Source: Olleya sp. Bg11-27 (GTDB lineage: Bacteria; Bacteroidota; Bacteroidia; Flavobacteriales; Flavobacteriaceae). From it: a DNA stretch of 64,000 bases. The stretch is from NCBI RefSeq assembly GCF_002831645.1, contig NZ_CP025117.1, positions 1,681,514 through 1,745,513 of the forward strand. Direction: 5' to 3'. Below the pieces are notes generated by a model. It saw nothing but the letters and a program-made list of their open reading frames with translations. It made no database searches and was not told the DNA's origin. The position numbers and the translations under genes were made by a program. This document shows, in pieces, positions 18,462 to 36,209 of the stretch; position 1 is the stretch's first letter; the number at the start of each line of letters is the position of its first letter.

Positions 18462-18463
18462 TG

Positions 18464-19186: not shown

Positions 19187-19287
19187 GATATTTTTATTAT
19201 ATTATTGTGTTATACAAAGTGCATTGGTGCGATTAAATGTTGTTTTGCTTTATCAAAATCATTGATATATGGGGTTGGTTATTGCCT

Positions 19288-20067
19288 TTAAAGTTCTTCG
19301 TACAGTGTTTTTATATACGTAGCATCGTATTTGTTTTCAATTTTCCTCATTATAAAATGTCCTTTTGCCATATCTTGAAAGTGATCCATAAACATTGTGT
19401 TTATTAATGCGCCTCCAGCAGCCCCAATTATTGGAACAGATTGGCTTATCATTTTTTCCGAAATTTGTATACTAAACCTTTCAGATATTTTGGCGATTAA
19501 CTTTAATAGTATGGGAGCACCTTCTTCAATAATTCCTTTTTCAGCTATAAATTTTGCTGTTTCAGAAATTGATTTAGCTAATATTGCTTTGATAGCGTAA
19601 TAGCCTGTTTCTGTGCCATCATCAGATTTAGATTTTCCTCCAAGAGCAAAGACCTCCAAACAGGCTAGTTTTGTTTCAATAGCGTTAATTGGTTCGCCTT
19701 GTTCTCGTGCTATATCTGCTATTGACCGTAACATTATGGTTGTAGAAATTGGTAACTCAATAGCTAAACCCGCTAGTCCAAAAAATCCTCCAACGCCACC
19801 ACTTGCAGCTACTGCTATTTTATGAGTTATATTAGAAGATTTAGTACTGGGTTTATCCTTCATTGTAAAAACAGCAACATTGGCTGCTTTGAGTAAAGAT
19901 TTTTGTGTTATATCGACTAGTTTGTCTTTCCAATCTTCAGGCAGTATTTCTAATCCTTTTTCAAAAGGTTTTCCTATAAAATTCGTGATTTTTGCTGCAA
20001 ATCCAGGGTTTTCTAATAAAGCTTTAGCGTCTTTTAATTCTTGTAAGTCTTGTTGTGTAATGTTCAT
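19288..20067 (-). CDS. EcsC-family protein
   Basis: 259 residues. It matches the EcsC family (PF12787) by overall plan: an amphipathic N-terminal helix bundle (LQELKDAKALLENPGFAAKI), a Gly/Ala-rich hydrophobic hairpin (GGVGGFFGLAGLAIELPISTTIMLRSIADIAR), KLACLEVFALGG, and a second Gly/Ala hairpin near the end (VPIIGAAGGALINTMFMDHF). The name comes from the third gene of the Bacillus ecs operon; the biochemical role is unknown, membrane association is likely. Last clear resident gene before the mobile region. Confidence 0.85.
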   Translation of the reverse strand: MNITQQDLQELKDAKALLENPGFAAKITNFIGKPFEKGLEILPEDWKDKLVDITQKSLLKAANVAVFTMKDKPSTKSSNITHKIAVAASGGVGGFFGLAGLAIELPISTTIMLRSIADIAREQGEPINAIETKLACLEVFALGGKSKSDDGTETGYYAIKAILAKSISETAKFIAEKGIIEEGAPILLKLIAKISERFSIQISEKMISQSVPIIGAAGGALINTMFMDHFQDMAKGHFIMRKIENKYDATYIKTLYEEL

Positions 20068-20439
20068 TTATTTTAATTTTATAAAAGACAAGGGATTTGG
20101 TTTAAAGAAAGATTTTATATCGAGATACATTTTTGTGCTTACAAGATATTATTCAATTTTCCATTCTACAAGAACTAGTGATAATATTATTTTACTTTTA
20201 AAGTTCAATTGATTGTTTTAATTGATTTGATTTTTCAGGGCTTTCCTTGTGGAGCGAGATTTATAGATAAGCCCAGTTTACATCGGATAGAAAAGGGGTG
20301 TAGATTGTCTTCCGGAATTAGTTTGAGTGAAAGACGCACATCAAGATGTTTTAACCTACTTGAAAGTATTCCTAATAATTGATGGCAAAATAATTTTATT
20401 GTTAATGGTTTTAACCGATGGATTTGATCGTTTTATAAG

Positions 20440-20760
20440 TAGAAGTGAATGATGTCGTTATGCAGGATTAACGTCTGTTATCAAGCGGAGTGGAAGTGGC
20501 GTAAAAGGGCGACCATTAATTAGTGAAAAAGGCAATCAAAAGCTTAATAATTTATTATTTATGTGAAGTTTTAGCGCTTGCAAATATAATGATGTATGTA
20601 AAGCAATTTATGAACGATTAGTTGCCAAAGGAAAGCGCAATAAACTTAGCCTTAATAAGTTTGTAATAAGCTATTAGAATAGGTGTTTACTATTGCTAAA
20701 TCAGGGTTAATATTTGATAAAGACTATAAAAGTACTTTAGTTAAAAATGAATCAGATTTC
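20440..20760 (+). pseudogene. IS110-family transposase remnant, C-terminal part
   Basis: The 720-bp gap between the EcsC gene and the Fic remnant is not empty. From about 20453 the plus strand encodes RYAGLTSVIKRSGSGVKG and GRPLISEKGNQKLNNLLFM, then a TGA at 20564-20566, then SFSACKYNDVCKAIYERLVA and a frameshift before the tail FTIAKSGLIFDKDYKSTLVK. This is the Transposase_20 domain of IS110/IS1111-type elements, inactivated by at least one nonsense and one frameshift mutation. Bases 20208-20440 probably belong to the same decayed element, but I find no clear frame there. Confidence 0.8.
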
Positions 20761-20790
20761 ACTTTTTTTTTACAGCAGTACTTTTTGGCT

Positions 20791-21394
20791 TTAGTTTTCT
20801 GCAAATTTTATTAAAGCTTTTATATTTCCATTGTCAGCTTCTCTCAAAGCTTTTATATATTGATTTCTTGTTTCGTTAGCTTTAATCATATTTGATTGAT
20901 GCCACGAAAATATTTCATTGCCAAATATTGATTCCATAATTATATCAGCCATCATCCTTGAGTGTCTTCCATTTCCATTTGGAAAGCAATGAATGGATAC
21001 TATGCGATGTTTAAATTTTATAGCTATTTCTTCAGGTGGAAAAGTGTTGTTATCTATCCAATATTTAGTGTCGTCCAATAAGTTTTTTAATTCAATTCTA
21101 ATTTGTGTCCATTTTATTCCAATGTTCTTTTCAGTCTTTCTAAATTCTCCTGCCCATTTCCATACATCACCATACATTTTTTTGTGTAAGTCTTTCATAA
21201 ACTTTTCAGTTAAAATTTTTTCAAGTTTGAATTTTGAATGAATAGTCCATTCAACTGCTTTTTCAATGTTCAATGTTCAATTGCTCAAATTCATCAAGTT
21301 CTCCTTGAGTAGAGATAGACTTTATTTTAAGACCTTCCTTTTCTTCTTCGTCTAAAGGTGTTTGTCCATCTTTATAATCGAATTCTAATCCCAT
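20791..21394 (-). pseudogene. Frameshifted Fic-domain protein, 'mobile mystery protein B' family
   Basis: The family start is at ATG 21394: MGLEFDYKDGQTPLDEEEKE and onward for 43 codons to a premature TGA. A 7-bp tandem duplication (caatgtt twice, 21264-21277 on the plus strand) shifts the frame. Removing one copy gives one continuous protein of about 198 residues joining EFEQLNIE to KAVEWTIHS. The Fic motif is HCFPNGNGRHSR, with the usual Asp/Glu replaced by Asn as in this family. Fic enzymes transfer AMP or similar groups to proteins. The ATG overlaps the end of the HTH partner gene by 10 nt. A restart at TTG 21273 could give a 160-residue product without the N-terminus. Confidence 0.85.
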
Positions 21395-21846
21395 AACGAT
21401 TTTTTCATCTCTCGTTTTATTTCGCTAGCAAGCTCCTTTATGGTTTTGGCTATCTTTTCATCTCCAATTCCTTGGTCCTCTAATTTCATATTTTGGTTAG
21501 TTCTCAAAACTATTTTTCGGGCCAGCTTTTCTGCTTTTATTTGAATTAAATCGTTTATGGTTCCATTTAGTGGGACCAGTGCATATACTAATTTCAAGTC
21601 AATTGCATTGGCTACACCTTTTAAAGAATTGAGCGTTATCGTACCATTAGCTTCACTGTCCTCTATTCTTTTTACGCCTTGTCTTGTTATATTTAATTTA
21701 GCACCAAGTTGTGCCATTGTCATATTTAGTGATGTCCGAATTGTATTTATCCATCCACGTTCTGGGACCAGGACCTTTCTGGTTTCAGAGAATGGTTGAA
21801 GTTTTTGGTCCAATTGCTCAATTAAAAGTTTTTGCTTATTTCTCAT
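21385..21846 (-). CDS. HTH protein, 'mobile mystery protein A' family
   Basis: 153 residues. The family-typical start (RNKQKLLIEQLDQKLQPF) is followed by an XRE-type helix-turn-helix at about 35-70 (LNMTMAQLGAKLNITRQGVKRIEDSEANGTITLNSL) and a helical tail. This family is nearly always encoded directly upstream of a Fic-type 'mobile mystery protein B', as here, with the two frames overlapping by 10 nt. By analogy with HTH/Fic pairs it may be antitoxin or repressor of the Fic protein. The promoter region carries inverted repeats that could be its own operator. Confidence 0.88.
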   Translation of the reverse strand: MRNKQKLLIEQLDQKLQPFSETRKVLVPERGWINTIRTSLNMTMAQLGAKLNITRQGVKRIEDSEANGTITLNSLKGVANAIDLKLVYALVPLNGTINDLIQIKAEKLARKIVLRTNQNMKLEDQGIGDEKIAKTIKELASEIKREMKKSLWD

Positions 21847-21862
21847 TTTTGTAACTCTTTAA

Positions 21863-21932
21863 GTTTACAAAACGATATAATTGTAAACATATGAATTTAC
21901 AAATATATAAAAAAGTAAACAATTAAGTTTAC
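21863..21932 (-). promoter_or_regulatory. Candidate operator/promoter of the mobile mystery pair
   Basis: Four GTTTAC/GTAAAC half-sites in 70 bp just upstream of the HTH gene, including the palindrome GTAAACAATTAAGTTTAC at 21915-21932 and a wide inverted pair at 21863-21868 / 21883-21888. Between them the minus strand reads TATATTTG (21907 to 21900), a good TAnnTTTG -7 box; no well-spaced -33 box was found. Autoregulation by the XRE protein is the likely use. Confidence 0.6.
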
Positions 21933-21956
21933 TTTGAGTTATTCTGTTAAATTAAT

Positions 21957-22093
21957 GCCAACGTGATTGTGTATGGTTAGTGGCGTATTTGTGCGCGAGG
22001 ATTTTCCGAAGAAAAATCAGAAGCTAGCAAACAAAGCAACTAACATAGGTTTAGGATAAAAATAGCAATTTTTTATATACTGTGTTGTGTGTA
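21957..22093 (-). other. attC-like site of cassette D
   Basis: Imperfect inverted repeat: left box GCCAAC then GTGTATGGTTAG, right arm TATATACTGT then box GTTGTGT. The cassette box GTTGTGTGTA at 22084-22093 is the same as the box at the other edge of cassette D (reverse complement at 22552-22561). The middle has the shared segment GCGAGGATTTTCCG also found in other sites of the array. The end of gene D runs into this site. Confidence 0.8.
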
Positions 22094-22519
22094 GTTTTTA
22101 TTTATCCGTTCAATTAATTTCTTTCTTACTTTGTCAAATTCTTTGCTTTTCATCCATTGTTTTTCAATCAGATGAAAGTCTTTTTCGCTTTCAATTTCAA
22201 TTACTTGGTCATAAGTATCTATTTCTCTGATATTTTTGATTTCCGAAAATTTTAGTTTAGTTCGTTTCTTCCAACGACCTGGAATTTCTATAAAGTCCTC
22301 TCCAATTTTCAGTTTTCCAACACTAAACTTACTAATAAATAGTGCAAGAAATCCAATTCCGAGAGCTGATGTCATTAGAAAAAATATGAACGTAATTATG
22401 CGAAACCATATTTCGCCTTTTTCCAAAGTCACTCCACCAAAAATTGTAGCCATTAAAATCCCACCTATTCCAACGAATAGATATTTAAAAGGTGGTCGAT
22501 ATTTAAATTCGTTTATCAA
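22073..22519 (-). CDS. Cassette D: small membrane protein with PH-like domain
   Basis: 148 residues from a TTG at 22519 (MINEFKYRPPFKYLFVGIGG). Two hydrophobic helices (about 13-32 and 36-62) are followed by a compact beta-rich domain (KLKIGEDFIEIPGRWKKRTKLKFSEIKN) like bacterial PH/YcxB-type membrane proteins. The last residues (NYTQHSI) are encoded by the attC box itself, a common consequence of cassette structure. Single gene with matching boxes on both sides (10 of 10 bases). Function unknown. Confidence 0.7.
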   Translation of the reverse strand: MINEFKYRPPFKYLFVGIGGILMATIFGGVTLEKGEIWFRIITFIFFLMTSALGIGFLALFISKFSVGKLKIGEDFIEIPGRWKKRTKLKFSEIKNIREIDTYDQVIEIESEKDFHLIEKQWMKSKEFDKVRKKLIERINKNYTQHSI

Positions 22520-22551
22520 TTATTTCTTATTAATATCGCTGGTGCTCAAAT

Positions 22552-22577
22552 TACACACAACTTGATTGTGTATGGTT
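22552..22577 (-). other. Half attC site of cassette C, cut by IS debris
   Basis: Left half only: box ACACAAC followed by TTGTGTATGGTTAG. The right half of the site was replaced by IS110, IS3 and IS1182 remnants; the matching box CGGT-GTTACCTACA appears beyond them at 23842-23855. Confidence 0.7.
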
Positions 22578-22655
22578 AGATTCTGTGTTAATTTACAACA
22601 AAAAATTCATGTTTTTTTTATGTTTTTATTTTTCAAAACGGCTTCGAGCTAGTTT

Positions 22656-23085
22656 CTAAAGGGCAGTTTCTATTTCTAATAGAGTTGCTCTTTTTTGTTG
22701 CTCATAATTTTGAATAAAACCTTCTTTATTTTTATAAACGACGTAAATTAATTCTAATAATTTTCTTTGAACAGCAATCAGTCCTTTCATTTTCACACCA
22801 CTTTTAGCCGTTAATCTCAAATATAATTCTTTATGGGTTTTATTATATTTTACTGCAGATAATGATGGTAAATGCATCGCTTTTCTCAAATTACGATTTC
22901 CTTTTTTTGATATCCTTGTTTTAGACCTTATAGATGTTCCAGATTGTTTTTCTTTTATATCTAAACCTGCATAACTGGTGATTTGTTTTTTATTTCTAAT
23001 CAGTTCAAATCCATTTGTTTCTGCTATAACAATTACCGCTGTTAGCATCCCTACACCAGGAATTGTGCAAATATTTTTTAATTCT
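22656..23085 (-). pseudogene. IS110-family transposase remnant, C-terminal half
   Basis: Minus strand encodes CTIPGVGMLTAVIVIAETNG, ITSYAGLDIKEKQSGTS and ISKKGNRNLRKAMHLPSLSA, the Transposase_20 domain of IS110-type recombinases, to a normal stop at 22656. The N-terminal RuvC-like part is missing; upstream the frame runs directly into IS3 OrfA sequence. It differs in sequence from the plus-strand IS110 remnant at 20.4 kb. Confidence 0.85.
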
Positions 23086-23288
23086 TCTTCTGCCTGTTTA
23101 TGTTCTTTACTTTTAGTATCATAAGTGACTTTTAAGCCTGCTTCTCCTTGGCTCTCATGTTTCTTCTTCCAACTATAAAAAGTACCTGTACTAACTCCGT
23201 ATTTACGACAGGTTTCTACGATACCTATTGCTTCTGAACTGGAGAGAATTTCTAACTTATGATCTAAGGTTCATTTCTTGTATTTCAT
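23086..23288 (-). pseudogene. IS3-family OrfA remnant
   Basis: ATG at 23288, then MKYKK, a TGA, and LDHKLEILSSSEAIGIVETC, RKYGVSTGTFYSWKKKHESQ, GEAGLKVTYDTKSKEHKQAE. This is the helix-turn-helix OrfA of an IS3-group element with an early nonsense codon. It is fused in frame near 23086 to the IS110 fragment, so one element was truncated by the other or both by a deletion. Confidence 0.85.
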
Positions 23289-23348
23289 ATCTCAAATATA
23301 TTAATTTTGAAATTTAAAATATCACTCCGATCTTATTGGGGGCTAAAC

Positions 23349-23841
23349 TACTTATCAATGTAGAGATTGTCCAATAAAAAAGAGTTGTTTAGGTAAAACC
23401 GCAAAAGAGAAAAAGTTTTCAGTGACCTATTTTAAAGCAGAATACGAACGTAATATTGCAAGTGTCGAGAGTAATCGTGGTCGTTATATGAAAGGTAAAC
23501 GTCAAAGCACTGTAGAACCTGTTTTTGGTACACTGACTCAGTTTATGGGGTTAAGAAAAATAAATACCATTGGTATTAAACAGGCCAACAAGGTTATGCA
23601 TCTGTCTGCAATAGCTTACAATCTTAAAAAGTATTTAAAGTTTGGACAAAAACGAACAAAAAGTGAAGGCAAAGCACTTGGCGTTTTGCTTTTTGAAATA
23701 ATGGCACTTTACAAGGCTATAAACTTCCATTTAAGCGTATCAAAATTAAGGTGAATCTTAATAAATAATAAAAATTGAGCCTCTTAAAAAGGCTTATTTT
23801 GCTTATTCTATTAGAAAATTATGGGGTTGTGCAACGGTTAC
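23349..23841 (+). mobile_element. 3' remnant of the IS1182-family element
   Basis: Near-identical to bases 40022-40514 of the intact copy, including the last 110 codons of the transposase (stop at about 23754), the hairpin after it and the right end TTGTGCAACGGTTAC. The 5' two thirds are missing; homology begins at tacttatcaatg. Beyond the right end lies CGGT and then the attC box GTTACCTACA, exactly as at the intact copy. Confidence 0.92.
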
Positions 23842-23855
23842 CGGTGTTACCTACA
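23842..23855 (-). other. Right box of the attC site of cassette C
   Basis: CGGT followed by GTTACCTACA. The same ten bases, reversed and complemented, stand at 24441-24450 at the 5' edge of cassette C, so the box pair is intact in spite of the IS insertion. Confidence 0.8.
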
Positions 23856-23861
23856 TTATTT

Positions 23862-24437
23862 TTAATTCAATGTGGTGTATATAAAATCCAAAAATAATTT
23901 CCTATACATTATTAATTGAAATTTATCTTCTGGAATTTTATTCAATACATCAATTAAATATTCGCTTTCTCTTTCTAAATTTCCGTAAGCCTCAAATTTA
24001 TTAAAAGCTAAACAAAATTGATATTGCCAACTAGATTTGTCCAGAATATGCAATTGTTCAAATAAATAACCGTAACAAGATAAATGAGAATTTTTCGGAA
24101 ATAACGAATATGGGTCAAACCCTATATCTGATTTAAGTTTCTCAAAAAAATCAGGTTTTATTTCTTTCTGATTCACTTTTTTTAATAATTCTGAATACCC
24201 GATTTTGTCTATTTCAGTCAGATATTTTTCTTTAAGTAGTGAATTTTCTAATAAACTATGAATATTCTGTTTGTAAATCAGTTTTCCTGCAATCGGTCCA
24301 ATTTCCGTTACGCGTCGATTATATTTGATTTCAGAGCATAATTCAAACTTTTCATCCGCAATTAAGTCAATCGTATTTTTAGTTGAATCACAAGCTGTGA
24401 TTAAAGTCAGAATTATTATTTGAAGCAGTTTTTTCAA
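23862..24437 (-). CDS. Cassette C: small lipoprotein
   Basis: 191 residues from a TTG at 24437 (read as Met, then KKLLQIIILTLITAC). The lipobox LITAC with Cys16 marks a lipoprotein. The frame is open further upstream to 24608, but those codons lie in the attC repeat and precede the cassette edge at 24450, so the TTG is preferred. The mature part is mainly helical and charged (DEKFELCSEIKYNRR, EYLIDVLNKIPEDKFQL). Family not recognised. The TAA is 7 nt from the attC box. Confidence 0.65.
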   Translation of the reverse strand: MKKLLQIIILTLITACDSTKNTIDLIADEKFELCSEIKYNRRVTEIGPIAGKLIYKQNIHSLLENSLLKEKYLTEIDKIGYSELLKKVNQKEIKPDFFEKLKSDIGFDPYSLFPKNSHLSCYGYLFEQLHILDKSSWQYQFCLAFNKFEAYGNLERESEYLIDVLNKIPEDKFQLIMYRKLFLDFIYTTLN

Positions 24438-24440
24438 TAT

Positions 24441-24645
24441 TGTAGGTAACGGAATTGTATAAGAATAGTAGGGCTGAAAATAGACAGTTACTATTCGGTT
24501 AAACACAAGCCGAATTTTTAAATTTTTCTTATTATCTTTTTTTCTCAATAAGCCAAATTTAAAAATTTGGCTACTTCGAAAAAGTGCCCAAGCCATTGAA
24601 TTAAGCACCTAATTACCCTATTATTTTTATACGGTGTTAGCAAAC
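24441..24645 (-). other. attC-like site of cassette E (long form)
   Basis: About 200 bp. Left box GTAGGTAAC, then GTATAAGAATAGTAGGG; right arm CCCTATTATTTTTATACGGT, then box GTTAGCAAAC. The inner arms are complementary over 17 bp with few mismatches. An internal hairpin (GCCAAATTTAAAAATTTGGC) makes up much of the loop. The right box agrees with the edge of cassette E at 25529-25538 in 9 of 10 bases. Confidence 0.8.
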
Positions 24646-24650
24646 GTATT

Positions 24651-25526
24651 TTATTCTTTTTCAAAACATTGTTGTCCGACTGCTCCACCTCCAAATTCTA
24701 AAACAATATTTCTCTCATAATAGATATATGAACAACCATCATTATATTTTGCTTGTTCTTCTTTATTTAAATCGTTTTTCAAGAATTTATATGAATATTT
24801 TCCCATTCCACTTCTAGCAAAACCAACAGTTGATATTTCTCCATTTTTTATTGAGCTACAATTCGCAATATCTATTAAGCTTTTAATATCCATTAAAGTC
24901 TTTTCATTCCAACCCAAAATCTTTATTTGTTCCAATAAAACTTCTGAATTATAGGGCAAATTTGATTCTCTAAAGATTTGGTCGGTTCCGCCATTTTCAT
25001 TTATTCGATTTGAGTAAATTCGTAAGTCAATGCTTTTTTCTGTACTTAAAACAATATCTTTTGGATTGAACTCAATATAAACGATAAGGCTATCAGGAAC
25101 TAAGTCAGAATATTCTTTGATAAGCTTTTTTATATTATCCTCATTTATTTTCAAGTTGTTTATTTGCTCCGATTTACTGCTTTTATTCATCGAAAGCACC
25201 ATTAATAAAAATTCCTTCTCTGGATTATTCCCTTCATTAAAAACTTTTGTTAATTCCTCTACTTTAGTTGGATGGACTTTTTTTATAACAACTTGAAATA
25301 GTGAATCCTTGTCAATTTTCTGATTGAATTTAGGTTCACTTTTTTTGATTTTTTGATTTTTTGGAATTGAGTCAAAATCTTTACTCGGTTTTCCAAATAT
25401 AAAATCTCCGACAAGAATTGATTTTTCTAGTTCTTTTTCAGAATCAGCTTTTCTTTGAGTATTTTTTTGAGCGGAACAACCTATAATCAAAAAGCTAATA
25501 AATATGTAGAGAATGTGTTTGGTCAT
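24651..25526 (-). CDS. Cassette E: lipoprotein of unknown function
   Basis: 291 residues. Signal and lipobox MTKHILYIFISFLIIGC. A linker rich in K, S and Q is followed by a mixed domain; a C-terminal stretch (YNDGCSYIYYERNIVLEFGG) has two of the few cysteines. The ATG lies 3 nt after the cassette-edge box (GTTCGCAAAC) and the stop 5 nt before the next, so the gene fills the cassette and has no room for its own promoter. Expression would depend on read-through. Confidence 0.7.
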   Translation of the reverse strand: MTKHILYIFISFLIIGCSAQKNTQRKADSEKELEKSILVGDFIFGKPSKDFDSIPKNQKIKKSEPKFNQKIDKDSLFQVVIKKVHPTKVEELTKVFNEGNNPEKEFLLMVLSMNKSSKSEQINNLKINEDNIKKLIKEYSDLVPDSLIVYIEFNPKDIVLSTEKSIDLRIYSNRINENGGTDQIFRESNLPYNSEVLLEQIKILGWNEKTLMDIKSLIDIANCSSIKNGEISTVGFARSGMGKYSYKFLKNDLNKEEQAKYNDGCSYIYYERNIVLEFGGGAVGQQCFEKE

Positions 25527-25528
25527 AT

Positions 25529-25664
25529 GTTTGCGAACGGTTTTGTGTATGATTAGTGGCGTGTTTAAGCACCTAGTTTAGCAAATAAAAACCGAATAGA
25601 AAATCCGCGATGATTTTCGTAAGTAGGCGAGAACTAGCCATTAATTATACACGGTGTTATGCGC
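25529..25664 (-). other. attC-like site of cassette F
   Basis: Left box TGCGAAC, then GTGTATGATTAGTGGC; right arm GCCATTAATTATACACGGT, then box GTTATGCGC. The arms pair over 16 bp with two mismatches. The right box equals the 5' edge of cassette F at 27519-27527 (9 of 9). The interior has CCGCGATGATTTTCG, close to the segment in the sites of cassettes B, D and G. Confidence 0.85.
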
Positions 25665-25665
25665 T

Positions 25666-27498
25666 TTAATATTTTTTTACCAATTCAAATTTCTTAGATT
25701 CCAACCTGTCAATTGGGTCTTTTCCTATTATTTTTTCTCTTATCATTTCAACTAATTCACTATCATTAAACTCAAGCATTAATTTTCCGTTTCCAAATAA
25801 TTCAGATTGTTCAATTTTTGCTGTTTTGTCAATTCCTTTCCTTGAAAACACAATAGCAAAATCACCAACACCTTTTTTAGTGTATTTTGAAACACTGAAA
25901 AAATTTGTTGAATTAAGTTTGTTTGAATAATTTTTGAAATCAATTATTATTGCTGAGCAGTTATAGTTTCTCTTAACGTCTGACCAAAATGATGTCAAAT
26001 CGGCTGGATTGTTATTTACTAATAAATCTCTTCTATGATTTTTTAAGTTATTCTCTATTTGTTCCTCGCTCAAATATTTTTTGAAGTTATCCTTGAATAA
26101 AAAACTAAAAATATCTACTCCTATAGATTCATATTCAGACCAGTTTTTTTCTCCAGGAACACATTTTTCTAATTTTGAAATTAGATTTTCTCCTTCAAAT
26201 TTCAATTCAAAACTATTTGATTTAATTCTGAGAGTGGGTATTTTAGATTTAATATACCAATGGATAATTTGACTGTTTTCTACTTCAAAATGTTTTCTTA
26301 TCAAATCTTGAAGAATAATCGTTTTAATATTCTCGTCTTTTAGGATTTTATATATTTCTTCTCCGGGAAATGAAGTGAATATAAATGAAGGAATTAATTC
26401 TGATGAAGTTTTCTTTATGTTAGTAATTCGAGCTTTAATCTTTGCTATACTTCTTGATTTATGATGGAAAATTTCAAAAGCAAAAGACTTTTTTTCTTTT
26501 GTAGCAGAAATATCATAGTCAATATCCTTTGATAAGTCTCCTTTATTGATTTTATATTCTTTACACTTTAAAAGAAATGTACAGAATTCTTCAATTTCAT
26601 ATCCACTAGAGTTTTGAATGAATATTTCAATTAATTCCCAATGAATATTACTTATTGAAAATGGATTGCGAAAACTTAAGTCTTCTTTCTTTAGACTTGA
26701 AATATGTGCACCTGCAAATTTATCCGTTATTTCCTCAAGGTTGTGAAAGTAAGATGGATAAAAATCATAAAATTGATGGTGAAGTTTAACAGAGTTGTCA
26801 CCATTAGTTGAGAAATATGAATGAATTCGGAATTCAAAAATATCAGAAGACATTGCCTCAGTAATATAAGCTATAACTTTTTTATTGCAGAAAGAAAAAT
26901 TATCGGCTAAAGATGGATAATGTTCCATTATATATCCTCTATAGTTACTTATATTAGTAATAAGGATGTTTTCGAGGTCAGTGTAATCTTTTTTCTTTAT
27001 GATTAGCTTTTTCTTTTTAGGGCCTGTTTTTGAAAATGCTCTTATCTTTTTTATTCTTTGATTTTTCTCTTTATCACTTTCGAAATTATAACTCTCAGGG
27101 AAATAATTATGAGTTGGCTCAGTTTTAATTTTTTCAAATAATTCTAATTCCTTAATATTTAAGTTTAGTAAAGCAATTTTAATTTTTGCTATGTATTGGA
27201 TTAATTCTCCGCCAAATCGTAATCGAGTTGTCCAAAGGCACTCAATTAATTCAAAATGCAATTCATTGACTAATGTAATTTTTTGATTATCAAAATCCTT
27301 TATTGATTCTGATTCTAATAAATCAAAAAAGTCACTTGTGAATGTCAATGGGAATAAATCGAATTTTAGTATTCTATTGATTAAATGACTTAGTTCAGAT
27401 TTAGCATCAAAGTACTCTTTTGGTTCGTTTACATTCGATTTATTAATTCGAGTGAAAGCGTCAATTAAGGAATCATAATATTTTCTTGTTGTAGTCAT
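25666..27498 (-). CDS. Cassette F: large protein with probable PD-(D/E)XK nuclease domain
   Basis: 610 residues, no signal peptide. The N-terminal half is helical and unrecognised. The C-terminal third, near residues 480-580, has the layout NHRRDLLVNNNP, TSFWSDVKRNYNCSAIIIDF and DFKNYSNKL, then GVGDFAIVFSRKGID. This RRD-(about 30)-D-x-K spacing is that of restriction-endonuclease-like PD-(D/E)XK folds. An additional stretch near 320-400 (KKSFAFEIFHHKSRSIAKIK) could be another nuclease-like or Schlafen-like strand set. A role in DNA or RNA cleavage, perhaps defence, is inference. First cassette after attI-like copy 1, a position expected to be best expressed. Confidence 0.65.
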   Translation of the reverse strand: MTTTRKYYDSLIDAFTRINKSNVNEPKEYFDAKSELSHLINRILKFDLFPLTFTSDFFDLLESESIKDFDNQKITLVNELHFELIECLWTTRLRFGGELIQYIAKIKIALLNLNIKELELFEKIKTEPTHNYFPESYNFESDKEKNQRIKKIRAFSKTGPKKKKLIIKKKDYTDLENILITNISNYRGYIMEHYPSLADNFSFCNKKVIAYITEAMSSDIFEFRIHSYFSTNGDNSVKLHHQFYDFYPSYFHNLEEITDKFAGAHISSLKKEDLSFRNPFSISNIHWELIEIFIQNSSGYEIEEFCTFLLKCKEYKINKGDLSKDIDYDISATKEKKSFAFEIFHHKSRSIAKIKARITNIKKTSSELIPSFIFTSFPGEEIYKILKDENIKTIILQDLIRKHFEVENSQIIHWYIKSKIPTLRIKSNSFELKFEGENLISKLEKCVPGEKNWSEYESIGVDIFSFLFKDNFKKYLSEEQIENNLKNHRRDLLVNNNPADLTSFWSDVKRNYNCSAIIIDFKNYSNKLNSTNFFSVSKYTKKGVGDFAIVFSRKGIDKTAKIEQSELFGNGKLMLEFNDSELVEMIREKIIGKDPIDRLESKKFELVKKY

Positions 27499-27518
27499 TT
27501 ATTCGGTTTGTCCTTATT

Positions 27519-27670
27519 GCGCATAACTAGTTATATGGTGACTAAAGTACTCAATATCCTCTAAATATTACGGGATATGTGGAAGTTTTGTTCCTGATTT
27601 CGGTTTTGAAAAGCTATTCTACAATTTATAAAGTAGTCTGAAAACACTCAGAATTACACATTTTTTATAA
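27519..27670 (-). other. attI-like site, copy 1
   Basis: Between cassette F and the gene at 27733 the minus strand ends in ATATAACTAGTTATGC: an inverted L box (ATATAAC), 2 nt, then the R box of cassette F. There is no complementary arm, so this is not an attC. About 145 bp align to the sequence at 41987-42135 without gaps, best in CTAAATATTACGGGATAT and ACAATTTATAAAGTAGTCTG. By position and form it is the primary attachment site heading the array F-E-C-D. A promoter reading into the cassettes may lie in the conserved minus-strand segment CAGACTACTTTATAAATTG. Confidence 0.65.
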
Positions 27671-29106: not shown

Positions 29107-29226
29107 AATTAGTAGATAATATAATTTTACTATACCCTGTTTTCCGTGATATTTTGATACTAAGTGTTTTATTTTTGTAAACGTCTTACGGATTTTTAAA
29201 CGTTTCTACAGACGACGTGTTAGCAA
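29107..29226 (-). other. Weak attC-like sequence after the hydrolase gene
   Basis: The stop codon of the hydrolase lies in the box TGCTAAC (plus strand GTTAGC at 29219-29224) preceded by ACGTCGTCTG, which pairs poorly with an AACGTCTTACG segment near 29178. No matching box was found at the 5' side of the hydrolase gene. Either a decayed attC or a chance box. Confidence 0.3.
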
Positions 29227-30113
29227 ATAGTATTACCTTTAGTAATCCAACGGTCTACAATGGACCATATTTCTTGCTTTGAATTTCTTGATTTTATAAT
29301 CCGACTATGAGTGTAATTTTCTAAATGACCAGCTTCCTTGGAGTAGAAAATGAATTTGTTGTGTTTGTTTTTAAATGCGTTTAGAAATTTTTTACAACCT
29401 TCTTTTGGTGCTATAAAATTATCACCTTTGGCACAAATTGATAATATTGGTATTTTAATTTTATCCATTCTTTTTAGATAATCAAAACCATTGTCACCAA
29501 TAAAATTCTGTTTTAAATTCCAATCAAACCATTGTTTCATAATGTAATAGGGCTCACTGTGTTCGGTTGATCCGGCATTTTTAGAAGGAACTTTACCTAG
29601 AATAGCGGCTGCATATTTACTTAATAGTATTTTTATTTTACTATTCAATCTTTCTGCAGCTCCAAATGCTTGTACTCCAAATAAAGTGATACTGTTAATT
29701 TTAGAATTATAATCGGGGTTATTTATTAAAAATATGGTCAAAACAATCCCGCCACCACTATGAGTAATACAGTCTATACCTTTTACTTTTATAATGTTAA
29801 ACAGGAAGTTAAATACAGATTTGAGATCGTACTTTGCAATAGTTTCAAAATTAAATTTTTGTTTAGTTTTGGAGCTTTTTCCATGATTTCTCCATTCCAT
29901 GATCCAACAAGTAAATCCCTTTTCAGTTAAATAGGCTGCAATACCATCGCATATCTTTCTATTAGAAAAAGTACCATGCGTCAAAAATATATGCTTGTCT
30001 GATCTCTTTTCAGAATTTAGTTTCCAAAGTGCTATGGTTTGATTATCCTCTGTTGTTATATGATAAAGATGTTCTGTCAGGGTTATAGTTTTAAAAGAGT
30101 ATAAAGAGCACAA
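29220..30113 (-). CDS. Alpha/beta-hydrolase fold protein
   Basis: 297 residues, no signal peptide. HGTFSNRK gives the oxyanion region, THSGGGIVL the nucleophile elbow (Ser in HSGGG instead of GxSxG), LSICAKGDNFIAP the acid turn and AGHLENYTHS the catalytic His. The elbow and length fit serine esterase/lipase-like hydrolases. Its TAA sits inside a GCTAAC box, as in some cassettes, but its upstream end lacks the partner. Substrate unknown. Confidence 0.8.
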   Translation of the reverse strand: MCSLYSFKTITLTEHLYHITTEDNQTIALWKLNSEKRSDKHIFLTHGTFSNRKICDGIAAYLTEKGFTCWIMEWRNHGKSSKTKQKFNFETIAKYDLKSVFNFLFNIIKVKGIDCITHSGGGIVLTIFLINNPDYNSKINSITLFGVQAFGAAERLNSKIKILLSKYAAAILGKVPSKNAGSTEHSEPYYIMKQWFDWNLKQNFIGDNGFDYLKRMDKIKIPILSICAKGDNFIAPKEGCKKFLNAFKNKHNKFIFYSKEAGHLENYTHSRIIKSRNSKQEIWSIVDRWITKGNTIC

Positions 30114-30146
30114 ATGTTTAATTAAGGATGCTGTTAATTCTTGTTC

Positions 30147-30704
30147 TTACAAGGTGTTCTCAATGTTTTTATGTCGATCAAATTCAGTTAATATTAATTT
30201 TTCAAGGTCTTCAAAATCATATTGTAAGGTGCTTGAAGTAATCGAAAGCGGTGTGCCATACATTTTCATATTTGATTGCATCAATTTTGCTTTCATTCCG
30301 TTTTGTGCTTTTCCGATATATTTTTCGGGTGCTATGACGTTAATCAGTAAAAATTTTGTGGATAGTACTTGTTTTGTTATTACACTAGATATGTCCTTCC
30401 ATTCAATCAGTCCAATACTGGAAGCGTTTGAGTGGTCCGTTATTCCGGTGGAGTCAATGGTTAATCCGACTTTTTTGTCAAACAGTTTTTTAATTCCAAA
30501 AATACCAGTTGCTCCAAAAATTAAAACGCCTAAAACTCCAATACTTTTTATAACTATTGGAGTTCTTAATAGTTTGAATGGATGCTCTTGAAAATAGTTA
30601 GCATTTAGAAACATCCAAATAGCCAGAACAACAAATAGTACTGACGCTCCAAGTCCTAAAATTAATTTATTTTTGCTTAATGGTATTTCAATTTTTTCTT
30701 TCAT
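30147..30704 (-). CDS. STM3941-type two-helix membrane protein
   Basis: 185 residues. Two hydrophobic helices (about 13-34 and 48-68) are followed by a PH-like domain (KVGLTIDSTGITDHSNASSIGLIEWKDISSV). This plan and the G-ITD-S opening match the STM3941 family seen in many Bacteroidota accessory regions. Likely in the inner membrane; role unknown. It is 23 bp from the lipoprotein gene upstream, so cotranscription is likely. Confidence 0.7.
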   Translation of the reverse strand: MKEKIEIPLSKNKLILGLGASVLFVVLAIWMFLNANYFQEHPFKLLRTPIVIKSIGVLGVLIFGATGIFGIKKLFDKKVGLTIDSTGITDHSNASSIGLIEWKDISSVITKQVLSTKFLLINVIAPEKYIGKAQNGMKAKLMQSNMKMYGTPLSITSSTLQYDFEDLEKLILTEFDRHKNIENTL

Positions 30705-30727
30705 TGTAATTCAGGGTGCTGGTGTTT

Positions 30728-31252
30728 TTAATTTTTGGTTGTTGGTGTTGTTTCTTCAACCTCATTCTCGTCCAAAGATGGCGTCTCTTTTTTCTCGTCG
30801 GTTTGTAAGTCTGTACAACCAGCTAATTTTGCTCTTTTTTTAAAGTCCGATAGCGTCTTGCTTTTCCATAATTTTAAATTTGTAGAATCAATCTCGTCAT
30901 AATCAAATTCAATTTTGTTTAGTTCAAGTTTGTTCCCGCTAGAAGTACTTTTTAATACAATTTTATTTTTAGACTGTAAAATGGCAACCAATGTGTCGTT
31001 ATTTGTGAGTAGTACAGGTCCAGTTTTAAAATTGGATAAAATTAGTGTGTTATCAGAGGTTTTGTTTTTAAAAAGCCAAACGTCATCGTATCGCGTTGTT
31101 AGGTTTATAACATATTTGTCAGTTATTCTATATTCGGTATAATTACCATCCTCAAGGCATTTATACCAAGTTCCAATGGCGATGTGTTTTTTGTCTGCTT
31201 TTTGACAACCAAAAACTAAAAAAAGAATACATATAATTTTTAGATATCTCAT
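30728..31252 (-). CDS. Small lipoprotein
   Basis: 174 residues. Signal and lipobox MRYLKIICILFLVFGC. The mature domain is beta-rich (WLFKNKTSDNTLILSNFKTG) with a Thr/Glu-rich tail (ETPSLDENEVEETTPTTKN). Family not recognised. Probably cotranscribed with the STM3941-type gene. Confidence 0.7.
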   Translation of the reverse strand: MRYLKIICILFLVFGCQKADKKHIAIGTWYKCLEDGNYTEYRITDKYVINLTTRYDDVWLFKNKTSDNTLILSNFKTGPVLLTNNDTLVAILQSKNKIVLKSTSSGNKLELNKIEFDYDEIDSTNLKLWKSKTLSDFKKRAKLAGCTDLQTDEKKETPSLDENEVEETTPTTKN

Positions 31253-31530
31253 GTCTTAAATGTTTGCCACTGTGTTGGCTTTTGTTAGTGTAAAATAAAA
31301 AGTAATTTGCTTTAGAGTAATCACGAATTTAGTAATTTTTTATAAACCTTGCTGTAAGTGATTTTGGTTTATTTTTTCCAATTTTAATTATACAATCTTT
31401 ACGACAATCGATCAATATTTTTTTACTGCAGATTATCTTACTGGTAGCCTTTATAAGTGCTAACCATATACAGATTTCAGTTATCAAATTTGGTTGGTTA
31501 GTATTTGTTTTATTAAGCAGTACAAGTTTT

Positions 31531-32289
31531 TTAGCCCGCAAAAATGAGCTGTATTAAAATTAGCTTACCATTTTTGAATTCAAATTTAGCGCCACTAGTA
31601 CTTTCAGATTCTGAATAGTATGCACTTGGATATTGAAAAGCATCGTTATTATCCATTAAGCTTGAGTGTGTCATAGGTTCTGTATGCATGATCGTTACAG
31701 TATTACCGTTTATATACAGCCCCTTAGATGAAATAGAAAATCCATCATCAATTAATAATTCATATTGCGCTTTTCCTTTGTGCCAGTATATATTTTTAAG
31801 TACTACAGTGTTAAGAATATTATCCATAATATTTACTAGATCAGAATAAAAATTTTCATCTGTATTTTTAATGACACCATTAAAAGTGCTTTTAATAAAA
31901 GCACTGTCATTTTCTTTAAGAGCTAATTTAAATTTTTCTAGTTCATTGATCAATAGTTGTCTGTTCGTTATTATTTTCGCTTCATGTGTTTTGAAAAGAT
32001 CTATGTTATGTTGTTCAATAGCGTTTAAGTTTATCTTATTTATAGGGGTTTTATAATTTGGTTTATACCAATCATATTCTGAATAATATGCTTCTAATCT
32101 TTGATTTTTAAAAATATAATTATGACGAGCAAAAATTTCATTTCTCAATAATTCTATTTCATATAATTTATTATTAATAATATCAGAATCAGAATATGTT
32201 ATAGATGCACACTTAGAACAATCCTTTAATATTTGAGCACTAGAATTAAAATATACTAAGAGTGTAACTAATAATAATAGTTTTTTCAT
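31531..32289 (-). CDS. Exported protein with YARHG domain
   Basis: 252 residues. Signal peptide MKKLLLLVTLLVYFNSSAQ. The YARHG domain (PF13308) is clear: LRNEIFARHNYIFKNQRLEAYYSEYDWYKPNYKT at about 48-82, including the R-N-E-I-F-A-R-H core and the WYKP end. The remaining two thirds is a mixed domain, possibly DUF-type. YARHG is an extracellular domain common in Bacteroidota and Firmicutes, often linked to peptidase or kinase genes; function unknown. Confidence 0.82.
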   Translation of the reverse strand: MKKLLLLVTLLVYFNSSAQILKDCSKCASITYSDSDIINNKLYEIELLRNEIFARHNYIFKNQRLEAYYSEYDWYKPNYKTPINKINLNAIEQHNIDLFKTHEAKIITNRQLLINELEKFKLALKENDSAFIKSTFNGVIKNTDENFYSDLVNIMDNILNTVVLKNIYWHKGKAQYELLIDDGFSISSKGLYINGNTVTIMHTEPMTHSSLMDNNDAFQYPSAYYSESESTSGAKFEFKNGKLILIQLIFAG

Positions 32290-32299
32290 GATAAATGGC

Positions 32300-32436
32300 A
32301 GTGTTTTTCGGGTATAGGATGCTATGTCTGTCTAGTTAAGTACTTAATTTAACAAGTAAATCAAGCTTGACTATTTTAAAGACTTAATAGTAAGTAGACA
32401 GTGAGCAAATTTTTAATTATATACCGCGTTGCGTAA
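32300..32436 (-). other. Degenerate attC-like inverted repeat
   Basis: Right side TTAATTATATACCGC then GTTGCGTAAGG stands 3 nt after the stop of the gene at 32439. Left side has GGGTATAGGATGC and a CTGTCTA/TAGACAG inner arm. The box has no partner at the 5' end of that gene. It looks like an older or recombined member of the same site family. Confidence 0.45.
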
Positions 32437-32438
32437 GG

Positions 32439-33221
32439 CTATCCTATTTTGAATCTAATAAGTATTATCAGTAGTAAAATATTTAAAGGCAATAACCACC
32501 ATACCCATTTTGTGTTATTATTCCCAAAAATTGATTCAGTTATAAAACCGTCCATTTTGTTATATAATTTTGTACTTGCTTCGACTTTATTTCCTTTAGA
32601 AATGTCTTCTTTTAAGTCTGTTAACATTCCGAAAAATGGAATTTTGTTTAGAATTAAAACAATTCCTTTTCGTAAAAATTTTGGTGTTTTTTGATATTTT
32701 GAATTAACCATCGTTCCAAAATCTAGCGCTTTTGTCAGTTTAGTATCTGATAAATCAACTTTACCCTGAAATAAATGTTCGACTTTATCAATAATAAGTT
32801 GAGATATTTTTTGAAAAAAAGAGGAAAGATTTTCGTAAATCACCCTTATTGTATCAATAACAACATAGTGGTAAGTTCTATATGCGGAGTATATCGTTAG
32901 ACTTAAACCAATAATTAAAACAAAACAGACAACTAGTAATTTTCTAAATTCAAAATCTGTTGAGAAAAGTCTATTTATTGAATAAAGGAATAAAAAAGTA
33001 TTTGAAACAGAAAAAAGAAATAAAACTGTAAAAAACCGTTTTACGCCATTTACACCTAGCTTTCCACCTTCCTTTATTAATTGCCAAGGATGATCAAGTA
33101 ATTCTAAAAGCTTGTTGTTTTTTTCTTCATTTTCAGGAACGTTATCATATTCTATTTCAAACTGTTTTTCTTCATTAGTTTTTGTTTGATATGTTCCTTC
33201 AATTAAATATTTTTTTTTCAT
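32439..33221 (-). CDS. Hypothetical membrane protein
   Basis: 260 residues. A charged N-terminus (about 55 residues, TKTNEEKQFEIEYDNVPENE) precedes two hydrophobic helices (about 65-84 and 94-113), a long central amphipathic region with FFQKISQLIIDKVEHLFQG, and a final helix (about 241-258, WVWWLLPLNILLLIILI). Not recognised. Likely cassette-borne, judging by the attC-like sequence right after its stop. Confidence 0.6.
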   Translation of the reverse strand: MKKKYLIEGTYQTKTNEEKQFEIEYDNVPENEEKNNKLLELLDHPWQLIKEGGKLGVNGVKRFFTVLFLFSVSNTFLFLYSINRLFSTDFEFRKLLVVCFVLIIGLSLTIYSAYRTYHYVVIDTIRVIYENLSSFFQKISQLIIDKVEHLFQGKVDLSDTKLTKALDFGTMVNSKYQKTPKFLRKGIVLILNKIPFFGMLTDLKEDISKGNKVEASTKLYNKMDGFITESIFGNNNTKWVWWLLPLNILLLIILIRFKIG

Positions 33222-33237
33222 TACTATTTGTTTTTAA

Positions 33238-33306
33238 TAGTGTATAATGTTTACGTGTGAGAAAATTAGTGCTAAAAAAGTGGATTATTTTTTAGTGTAG
33301 ATTGTT
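33238..33306 (-). other. Degenerate attC-like site
   Basis: TATAATGTTTACGTGTGAG and ATTAGTGC parallel the left arm of the site at 41115, and GTAGATTGTTACCACTAG ends at the gene at 33319. The boxes are decayed; the edge of that gene at 34117-34127 matches only about 6 of 10 bases. Confidence 0.4.
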
Positions 33307-33318
33307 ACCACTAGTTTT

Positions 33319-34107
33319 TTATTCCGCTATTATTTCATTTTCGGATGTTTTGTCCTCCGTTTTTTTACTCATTTTCCAGAACCAATAAAGTCCGCCAAGA
33401 GGTATTCCAAAAGTCCAAGCTGAACTTAAATAACCCATATATGAAAAACTAATCCCGAACAGTATTTGAAAGCTTAATAAACTTAAAGAAAGTCCATAAA
33501 CTGCACTGTATGTGATGGCTGGAACATTTAGAAATATTATAGCTATATATTTTAGCCATTTTTTCTTTAGATTACTTTTCTTAATTTTTCTGATTATCCA
33601 AATATTAAAAACCGGTACGCATATGGCTAAAATTCCGAATAGCCAAAACCAAACCATATTTGGAATTTTCTCTTTTAAGTCGAGAGTTTTAATGTGTAAT
33701 ATTTTATTTGAATTATCAGCAAAAGTGATTTCAAAGACACCAAACTCGGTGTCGTTTGAAAATTCAATTTGGGCTAAAGTTGTGTTTGGTGCAGTACTTT
33801 CTCCTTCTACTGTTGAAAAGGTTTTATTTGCAGTTATAAACTTGTAGTCTAATTCTTTTCCAAAATTGGCTACAATTATTTTTCTAAAATTGACTAAACT
33901 TAATTTTAAAGTGTCAATGTTCGTGTTTTTATAAGCCTCGTTTTCAATTGCCATAAATGAGACACTCTTTTCATAATCTTGTTCTATAAGAGATTCTACA
34001 AATCCCTGAGTTGTGTCTTTATAGGTCGACACATTATTAATGAAATCACAACTTGTAAAAAGTGATATTGTGAATATTAGTAATAAAGTTTGTTGTGGTC
34101 TATTCAT
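33319..34107 (-). CDS. Lipoprotein-like protein with C-terminal membrane helices
   Basis: 262 residues. N-terminal signal with lipobox MNRPQQTLLLIFTISLFTSC. A soluble domain of about 120 residues (FVESLIEQDYEKSVSFMAIE, DUF3887-like opening but not assignable) is followed by three or four hydrophobic helices near 148-250. A lipid anchor plus membrane helices is an unusual combination. The ATG at 34107 lies after the edge of a decayed cassette. Confidence 0.6.
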   Translation of the reverse strand: MNRPQQTLLLIFTISLFTSCDFINNVSTYKDTTQGFVESLIEQDYEKSVSFMAIENEAYKNTNIDTLKLSLVNFRKIIVANFGKELDYKFITANKTFSTVEGESTAPNTTLAQIEFSNDTEFGVFEITFADNSNKILHIKTLDLKEKIPNMVWFWLFGILAICVPVFNIWIIRKIKKSNLKKKWLKYIAIIFLNVPAITYSAVYGLSLSLLSFQILFGISFSYMGYLSSAWTFGIPLGGLYWFWKMSKKTEDKTSENEIIAE

Positions 34108-34120
34108 TTTTAAAATTGAT

Positions 34121-34208
34121 GGATACGTTTATGTACAAGGCTAATGGCGTGCTTAAATAACTAAATTAATAAAAATGGAACGCTTATTACAGTCCTTTGT
34201 TAGCTGTA
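34121..34208 (-). other. attC-like site of cassette L
   Basis: Left box GGATACG and arm ATGTACAAGGCTAATGGCG; right arm CGCTTATTACAGTCCTTT and box GTTAGCTGTA at 34199-34208. The right box is identical (10 of 10) to the 5' edge of cassette L at 34727-34736. Confidence 0.75.
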
Positions 34209-34724
34209 GTATTTTATTTCTTTTTCCTTTAAATTCCCTTTGTAAATTGTCACATCATGTTCAAATTCAAATGAGTTAATAAAATTTCCATTTTCAGGTG
34301 AGAACATTAATGTATAAACAATATTTAGTTTTTCAAAAAGCAAATCGAAGTTCCGAAATAACAATCCTGATTTAATTTCCAACCAGTCAGTTTTGTCGAT
34401 AAGGAACTCATTCTTAATTAAAATTCTATCAGATTTTTGTTCCAAAATCCAGTTTTTGATTTCATTCTGAACATACAATTCCTCGTCAATTGTTTTAAAC
34501 CTTAATTCCGTAAAGATTGTTTTTTGAGGTTTATTAAACAGGGTTGGTTTAGCAATATTTTCAATATCTATGTCCAAAGAAATGATTTTTACTAATCCAG
34601 ATTCCAAATTATTCAATTCGGTCAAAAATTGATTTAGAGCATTCTCTTTTTTCTCGAGATTAATTAGATTTTTATATTCAGCTCTTTTCAGTTTTAAATA
34701 TTCTATTCTGGTCGTGTTGCTCAT
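34200..34724 (-). CDS. Cassette L: hypothetical cytoplasmic protein
   Basis: 174 residues, no signal. The N-terminus is a basic coiled region (YLKLKRAEYKNLINLEKKEN), the rest alternates strands and helices with WLEIKSGLLFRNFDLLFEKL. Not recognised. A textbook cassette fit: ATG 5 nt after the edge box and the TAA inside the attC box (AGCTAAC), so boxes bracket the gene with almost no spare sequence. Confidence 0.7.
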   Translation of the reverse strand: MSNTTRIEYLKLKRAEYKNLINLEKKENALNQFLTELNNLESGLVKIISLDIDIENIAKPTLFNKPQKTIFTELRFKTIDEELYVQNEIKNWILEQKSDRILIKNEFLIDKTDWLEIKSGLLFRNFDLLFEKLNIVYTLMFSPENGNFINSFEFEHDVTIYKGNLKEKEIKYYS

Positions 34725-34730
34725 ATTACA

Positions 34731-35403
34731 GCTAACGGTTTAGGGTGTGGGAAGTTGCGGTTTTGAAATCGCATTTTTCCGTTGTGTGTGCCCAGCATGG
34801 GCATCTTTTATTTACGGAAAGGTAAATAATTAATATAGAGGGTGCAAGTCTCTTATGGGCAGGAGTAACCCTTCAGTTACGCTCAGGACAGGCTTATTGA
34901 AGCATTAGTAAGTCGCAAGAGTGAAAACCGTGAGGTTTTATGTGAAGGCAATTGGTGTTTGATTAATGAGCAAATACCACTACAAAACTCGGTACTGATA
35001 TTATGTAGATACGGCAGTGATTGAGTGAAAGAAGATGCCATTACATGGGGAGATCTTCAAAGTTACGATTTAATTATATGTAGCAATTAGCAGAGGTCAT
35101 AGTACTTACAGGACACGAGTTGAGGCAATACCTCAGAAGGTCTCACAAGTAAGGAAGGACAGAACGTAATGCTCTTCAAAATTCGCATAGGAGCACTAGT
35201 GGTAGCCTATGCCTAAATTAGAAAATGGTGTCAAGGGTGAAAAGCGCTTTGGCGTGATGATTTACGAACCGCCTTATACGTTCCTGAGTGCTATTGCTAG
35301 TAGCAATAGAGATGAAAGGACCCGCGTAGTAGCGTACGTACGTTGGTGTGAAAGGCGCACTCCGGATATTTTAGTCGGAGCCGTCTACTCGATTGGCATT
35401 AGT
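34731..35403 (-). other. attC-like site of cassette H, split by a group II intron
   Basis: Left part 34731-34785: box GCTAAC, arm GGGAAGTTGCG, short loop, arm CGCATTTTTCC, then CGTTGT. Right part begins 35394: TGGCATTAG. Removing 34786-35393 restores GTTGTTGGCATTAG, whose box GTTGGCATTA agrees in 9 of 10 bases with the 5' edge of cassette H (36206-36215). The empty site would be only about 65 bp. Confidence 0.75.
34786..35393 (+). mobile_element. ORF-less group II intron, copy 1
   Basis: 608 bp. Starts GTGTGCCCAGCATGGGC and ends CGTCTACTCGAT, the boundaries of bacterial group II introns. Internal landmarks include GAGGGTGCAAGTCTC, AAAACTCGGTAC, GATACGGCAGTGATTGAGTG and a domain V/VI-like end (GTGTGAAAGGCGCACTCCGG then a CTCCGG/CGGAG-type hairpin). 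The reverse-transcriptase gene expected in domain IV is missing, so mobility needs a protein in trans. Inserted in an attC at GT^T of the R box, on the strand opposite the cassette genes. Class not determined by eye. Confidence 0.82.
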
Positions 35404-35407
35404 TTTG

Positions 35408-36100: not shown

Positions 36101-36209
36101 AATATTTTATTTTTTAATTAATAGTATTTATTCTATAGTCGGAAAAACATAAAAAGGTTGCGTCATTTTATTAAAAATGTGATTAACGACTATGTTCAAT
36201 TTAATTAAT

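Follow-up and report, generated by a model that had tools for sequence, protein, structure and literature searches.

Sedentary chromosomal integrons, such as those of Vibrio and Xanthomonas, consist of an IntI integrase, one attI site and a large array of one-gene cassettes running in a single direction, each with an attC hairpin of the form R''-L''-L'-R' and inserted at G|TT. This triplet is the integron cross-over, and the hallmark of an integron cassette is that its first bases recur as their reverse complement at its own attC. Canonical IntI reads the folded attC via its I2 helix, which is regarded as the step that enabled the use of single-stranded attC sites and whose study is hampered by missing intermediates (PMC7790495). 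A survey of tyrosine recombinases found the IntI insertion to be incompletely conserved in an integron-like subgroup, yet deemed it essential for integron function (PMC8138268). The position of attI downstream of intI is already known in Treponema and Archaea (PMC3607928, PMC9668308). Within Bacteroidetes proper, IntegronFinder 2.0 reported one complete integron, in Salinibacter (PMC9024848).

The locus analysed here lies in a 64,000-nucleotide stretch of DNA (the window, taken at its whole length) of a 4.31-Mb, single-contig Bacteroidota genome (G000), which we compared with a sister genome (G005), another congener (G003) and further relatives. Like the Vibrio and Xanthomonas integrons, it has attI, attC hairpins and large single-direction arrays of one-gene cassettes, with probable insertion at G|TT, but the integrase falls outside the IntI clade and lacks the IntI-specific insertion, the integrase gene carries attI at its 3' end, and attI is present in dozens of copies instead of one. 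An attI downstream of an integrase gene that is transcribed toward it is also the layout in Treponema and Archaea, although those integrons have one attI each and the archaeal IntI is reported to retain the additional domain (PMC3607928, PMC9668308). Like CALINs, which are attC clusters without integrase (PMC9024848), the arrays of the window have attC sites and no adjoining integrase; unlike them, they are headed by attI, a recognisable copy of the site of a distant integrase. Finally, attI sites at the 3' side of cassettes and within arrays recall the delta-attI cassettes of class 1 integrons (PMC12901181), whereas the copies described here occur chromosome-wide and also alone at core-gene boundaries. 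We consider it highly probable that the blocks described below serve as attI for cassettes inserted at G|TT by a non-IntI tyrosine recombinase of Bacteroidota, the 3' end of whose gene has been copied widely in the genus. Sequence comparison shows directly that the blocks recur as copies, that these derive from the 3' end of the integrase gene, how the cassettes and attC sites are built, and that orthologous sites hold differing cassettes.

An earlier note on this DNA had reported two attI-like blocks at 27519-27670 and 41987-42135, and both are present there. The gap-free alignment of about 145 bp, some three quarters identical, that it described by eye was borne out: the last 145 bp align without gaps at 79% identity. 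When both blocks are anchored at GTT, ungapped identity over 165 bp is 73%, and BLAST gives 78.8% over 165 bp with an E value of about 2e-34 (79% and 3e-34 in the whole-genome search), which is far past chance and rules out a fortuitous similarity. The block ends had been described accurately but listed in reverse order relative to their coordinates. On the minus (cassette) strand, block 1 ends in ATATAACTAGTT-ATGCGCAA, with GTT at 27527-27525, and block 2 in ATATAACGAGTT-AGGCACAA. The end common to both is ATATAACNAGTT, followed by the start of the cassette (GTTATGCGCAA at 27527 and GTTAGGCACAA at 41996). A tRNA, a riboswitch or another known RNA was rejected as an identity for the blocks, since the Rfam matches in the window comprised tRNAs and group II intron pieces only. 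The features of the two blocks are as follows.

27525-27536, minus strand: core ATATAACTAGTT of attI copy 1, with the recombination point G|TT at 27527/27526
27525..27621, minus strand: attI copy 1, conserved 97-bp core, homologous to the integrase-gene 3' end plus attI in G005 and G003
27554..27578, no strand assigned: imperfect inverted repeat ATATCCCGTAATATTTAGAGGATAT (as read on the minus strand) in attI copy 1, from the sequence
27622..27670, minus strand: left extension of attI copy 1, degenerate dyad ATACGTAGTTCTACGTAT + TTTATAAATTGTAG, from the alignment of 25 copies
41994..42138, minus strand: attI copy 2 with left extension (dyad ATACGTAGTTCTACGTAT), head of array 2, GTT at 41996-41994, from the block alignment

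The inverted repeat at 27554..27578 occurs in perfect form in another attI copy (L103), as ATATCCCGTAA-TAT-TTACGGGATAT, and is a candidate protein-binding site. The left extension at 27622..27670 is possibly a cassette promoter region.

Each block is followed on the cassette strand by an array, whose features are given below.

16325..27527, minus strand: array 1 and remnants, full extent; synteny with G005 resumes at 16324
25539..27527, minus strand: first cassette of array 1, 1989 bp, start GTTATGCGCA / R'' AGCGCATAAC
25666-27498, minus strand: 610-aa ORF of this cassette, no Pfam match
25532..25664, minus strand: attC of array 1 cassette 1 (model R1, 118.5 bits, E 1.3e-19)
24444..24644, minus strand: attC of array 1 cassette 2, with a longer loop (44.8 bits, E 3e-6)
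21956..22092, minus strand: attC of a later array 1 cassette that starts at 22561 (91.8 bits; start/R'' pair)
29160..42273, minus strand: 13.1-kb segment with attI copy 2 and array 2, missing in the sister genome G005
41125..41996, minus strand: first cassette of array 2, with a 240-aa ORF at 41262-41984 (start/R'' pair)
41118..41253, minus strand: attC of array 2 cassette 1 (107.1 bits)
38666..38798, minus strand: attC of array 2 (82.4 bits)
36646..36779, minus strand: attC of array 2 (94.4 bits)
36209..36348, minus strand: attC of array 2 (61.1 bits)
38868..40427, plus strand: IS DDE transposase (Pfam DUF772/DDE_Tnp); the IS splits the attC that belongs to cassette 2 of array 2 (R'' at 40527)
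36911..37235, plus strand: group II intron pieces in array 2 (Rfam RF02001, RF01998)

In both arrays, the attC of cassette 1 opens with the reverse complement, exact or with one mismatch, of the first 9-10 nt of that cassette (25664 and 41253). The same relation holds widely: among the 76 attI copies with enough downstream sequence, 59 had, within 3 kb, a reverse-complement match (at most one mismatch) to the first 10 nt of their cassette, compared with a mean of 9.2 and a maximum of 14.6 when the starts were permuted among sites, and exact matches numbered 32 versus 0.7 in the permuted control. At many of the matching sites an IS or a group II intron piece follows R'', and for 17 of the 76 no R'' partner could be detected in the first 3 kb, which ISs, introns or decay would explain. 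The alignment of 23 uninterrupted attC sites of about 134 nt each showed an L''/L' stem paired in 94% of cells. This stem covaries (34 both-side changes versus 12 when shuffled, 0/500), and the signal collapses when the alignment is slid by one column. An A.C mispair is conserved at each of two fixed positions, in 22 and 21 of the 23 sequences respectively; by analogy, these mispairs may be the counterparts of the extrahelical bases in canonical attC sites. These sites thus have what defines an integron attC: an imperfect hairpin, an R'' complementary to the start of its own cassette and a paired L''/L'. Covariance-model searches identified 7 strong attC sites in the window and 65, 76, 68, 108 and 94 in five genomes of the genus, the first figure being that of the window genome.

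Other elements also reside in the arrays. Group II intron pieces lie at attC sites immediately after R'' (36911-37235 and 34780-35400 in the window, and in the arrays of L030 and L099), many of them short remnants, and an R'' occupied by an intron ends in ...AAT where ...AAC would otherwise stand (e.g., GTAGCCAAT|CGAGTAGACGG), in line with class C introns that target attC. ISs inserted at attC include the DUF772/DDE element of the window and another one at 23422-23854, as well as those of L026 and L030, with the signature ACCGGTAACCGTTGCACAACCCC after R''; IS110-like elements seem to be recurrent at attC sites too. At 20791-21846, neighbouring cassette genes encode a Fic/DOC protein (PF02661) and an HTH protein, an arrangement that resembles a toxin-antitoxin pair.

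The earlier note had proposed a duplicated platform. This description is too narrow, as the two blocks are only two of at least 32 attI copies dispersed in the genome. BLAST returned 17 matches of the block in G000, and core motif plus homology gave no fewer than 32 copies for G000 and 37 for G005, both of which are lower bounds drawn from examined regions and pattern matches. The core pattern alone is noisy (29 matches in G000 versus 7 in a reversed control); its matches are strongly biased toward one strand (24 minus versus 5 plus), which perhaps relates cassette orientation to the direction of replication. Every copy aligned is conserved as far as ATATAACNAG|GTT and then diverges suddenly into the cassette. 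Copies of the block away from cassette boundaries were sought and none was found, in a site search that demanded a core ending in GTT. The name attI given to the blocks by the earlier note is well supported: all copies examined mark cassette starts, orthologous copies hold differing cassettes, and, as described below, one copy overlaps the 3' end of a recombinase gene. Non-classical genomic sites of cassette insertion without homology to attI are termed attG, a term that does not suit the dispersed copies, which share their core with the integrase-borne attI.

To the left of the core, a conserved extension containing the dyad ATACGTAGTTCTACGTAT is present in most copies, and in the alignment of copies this upstream dyad is accompanied by an AT-rich stretch near attI. 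The dyad is also present without attI in congeners and is therefore a separate element, perhaps part of a promoter. At about 2790 in L155 and L157 (G009 and G001), the dyad AATACGTAGTTATACGTATT, which is the left part of most attI blocks, stands without attI upstream of a homologue of window 42338-43618, possibly as a regulator site or a mobile promoter element. Some copies have no left extension and directly abut the 3' ends of core genes. Solo copies at core-gene 3' ends were seen at L028, L103, L025 and L020, those of L028/L103 at an identical location in three congeners (G000, G003 and G005). The left junctions of the solo copies are of several types, and no single mechanism common to them was found.

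The origin of the blocks can be read from the one copy, among the at least 32 in G000, that still adjoins an integrase gene. In this copy, the block and the 3' end of a tyrosine recombinase gene overlap, the gene being broken by a frameshift in G000. Intact orthologues in G003 and G005 (84-85% identical) terminate in the same block sequence, with the stop codon within the block and ATATAACTAGTT 30-40 bp beyond the stop, so that in all three genomes an attI with G|TT overlaps the integrase gene. The right 97 bp of the dispersed blocks, those of the window included, consist of the last ~15 codons of the recombinase gene plus attI, and they are therefore copies of the integrase-borne attI; a solo copy in G007 retains an even longer piece of the gene. 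An attI core followed by cassette starts occurs in about 30 genomes. Among 42 Bacteroidota loci, an exact 10-nt cassette start/R'' pair begins at most 260 bp after the recombinase gene in 24, a count that is our own and in which at least one locus resembles a chance match; such pairs were seen at 1 of 41 loci in an upstream control and at 4 of 42 in an opposite-strand control. The 24 loci include Zunongwangia mangrovi, Winogradskyella ursingii, Seonamhaeicola aphaedonensis and Algoriphagus ornithinivorans. The dispersal of attI is a trait of only part of the genus; in G001, many attC sites are clustered beside the recombinase, which is the classical layout.

The search for an intI gene beside a copy of the block, suggested in the earlier note, thus led to an integrase gene, although one of another recombinase family. 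G000 encodes three PF00589 genes only, XerC/D-like genes and the broken recombinase, and IntI was rejected there because all scored below the curated cut-off of TIGR02249 (265 bits). Six Bacteroidota enzymes scored 195-204 bits with this model, compared with 457 and 473 for the IntI controls of Nitrosomonas and Geobacter. The alignment to the solved IntI4 (2A3V) breaks at the IntI-specific region, and the insertion of ~42 residues (the I2 region, between the catalytic K and H-R) is missing in 21 of 21 aligned relatives, in keeping with a K-to-H spacing of 63-69 in the measured Bacteroidota enzymes versus 106-107 in IntI. These 21 sequences all retain the catalytic residues R231, K256, H320, R323, H346 and Y355 (the R-K-H-R-H/W-Y set), which, together with a match to PF00589, identify the enzyme as a tyrosine recombinase. 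In a quick tree, the IntI-type rows formed their own clade (SH-aLRT 99, branch 0.87), with the Bacteroidota enzymes outside. By the defining features of IntI, this recombinase is not an IntI.

The relatives of the recombinase also share an N-terminal domain of ~80 residues (pLDDT of the structure model, 85), for which no convincing sequence match was found in Pfam or PDB. The best Foldseek matches were the HARP domain of SMARCAL1 (probability 0.92) and XPB (0.85), with E values of 0.08 or worse. Proteins with HARP and XPB domains recognise DNA junctions or damage. Since Foldseek alone suggests it, with a best E of 0.08, the HARP/XPB identity is hypothetical, as is the idea that this domain may substitute for I2.

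Comparison with sister genomes revealed a turnover of cassettes. At nine orthologous pairs of attI in G000 and G005, recognised by matching left flanks of 0.7-1.7 kb, the first cassette was shared by none (0/9), and conservation ended at GTT, which is comparative evidence for a putative cassette insertion at this point. Site 1 of the window is orthologous to G005 568363, where the first cassette differs. The first cassette of array 2 recurs in G005 in first position at a different attI, which is orthologous to that at G000 4010470, with 95% identity from GTT. The gene of this shared cassette (window 41118-41260 versus L095 5358-5490) has an identical R'' and an attC core that differs between the genomes. 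Exchange seems to have a boundary at R'' in addition to the one at GTT, and the differing attC core argues against a simple transfer of the cassette, which does not predict such a difference. An all-against-all BLAST for shared cassettes retrieved largely IS elements and few informative cassettes. The proposal of the earlier note that an array was captured with its attI fits site 2, as the whole 13.1 kb of 29160-42273 is absent in G005. In G003, the core genes flanking at window 42274 and 16288 are adjacent, with neither array present. Array 2 was therefore either added at this locus or lost in G005.

How the attI copies spread is the point on which a further reading, compatible with the one preferred here, can be offered: some cassettes may have a terminal tail that bears attI where others have a simple attC, thus carrying a new docking site with them. 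We hold this as a tentative possibility, somewhat short of an even chance. Two cassettes of G005 have similar tails of ~420 nt from R'' to a new attI (3840106 to 3841073 and 3843759 to 3845248), and delta-attI cassettes recombine in class 1 integrons (PMC12901181). Most gaps between neighbouring attI copies, however, hold a normal attC or no clear R'', and such tails fail to explain the solo copies that abut core genes at several distinct left junctions.

Alternatively, the arrays could be CALIN remnants of a lost classical IntI integron, the XerA-like recombinase being an unrelated neighbour or the integrase of a resident mobile element. Integrase-free CALINs are common in genomes (PMC9024848), and the recombinase of G000 itself is broken. 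Yet among 60 relatives none encodes an IntI above the TIGR02249 cut-off, while 37 have attC sites. The recombinase is itself encoded by 37 of the 60: 34 genomes have both, 20 neither and 3 each alone (Fisher test; P = 6e-10, a value that overstates independence because relatives share ancestry). Moreover, about 30 genomes from many genera have cassette starts downstream of this recombinase, and the attI copies contain recombinase codons, which makes a lost IntI very unlikely. Less credible still are cassette-borne promoters or regulatory repeats that merely precede cassettes and are no recombination sites, for, although the left part with its dyad is found without attI in congeners and many copies lie within arrays, conservation ends exactly at GTT, solo chromosomal copies carry differing cassettes in sister genomes, and the right part of the block comes from the end of the integrase gene.

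We therefore retain the reading of the blocks as copies of an integrase-borne attI. In this system, the tyrosine recombinase would put circular gene cassettes into attI at G|TT. From known integron chemistry and the anatomy of the sites, the integrase would bind attI at the 3' end of its own gene or at any dispersed copy, take the cassette via its folded attC and then insert it at G|TT. We infer that this recombinase carries out the cassette reaction. With its own attI at the 3' end of its gene, the gene and the cassettes are read in one direction. The 3' end, as the last ~15 codons plus attI, has been copied to dozens of chromosomal places in the genus, by a route that we also infer, and each dispersed copy heads or interrupts an attC cassette array; one integrase would therefore serve many attI sites in trans. 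Since the integrase gene of G000 is frameshifted, its arrays are probably static unless the enzyme is supplied from outside. Against this explanation stand the broken gene of G000, the presence of XerC/XerD-like enzymes as well, the 17 of 76 sites without an R'' partner, the differing attC core of the shared cassette, and its derivation from sequence. On its anatomy, the whole system is of the integron type, with an integrase other than IntI and with numerous attI sites dispersed in the genome.

Within open-licence literature, we found no description of an I2-less Bacteroidota integron integrase with arrays or of dozens of attI per genome, which is weak evidence of absence. In contrast to the survey of simple tyrosine recombinases that deemed the insertion essential (PMC8138268), here a whole insertion-less group heads attC arrays. 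More speculatively, and with less than even confidence, there may be a second kind of integron in Bacteroidota, in which an XerA-like recombinase without I2 recombines folded single-stranded attC sites, the HARP/XPB-like N-terminal domain reads the fold, and the enzyme acts in trans on dozens of scattered attI in some genera. If true, this system would either have survived from a stage of integrase evolution that preceded I2 or have arisen as an independent solution. With a phylum-wide group of I2-less enzymes at attI that tracks attC arrays, the question of the I2 step becomes directly testable. These results also suggest that Bacteroidota are missed by integron surveys that rely on the IntI domain. 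Because the integrase family is unlike any known integron integrase, the finding bears on integron evolution, and dispersed attI would show one integrase building cassette arrays at many chromosomal addresses.
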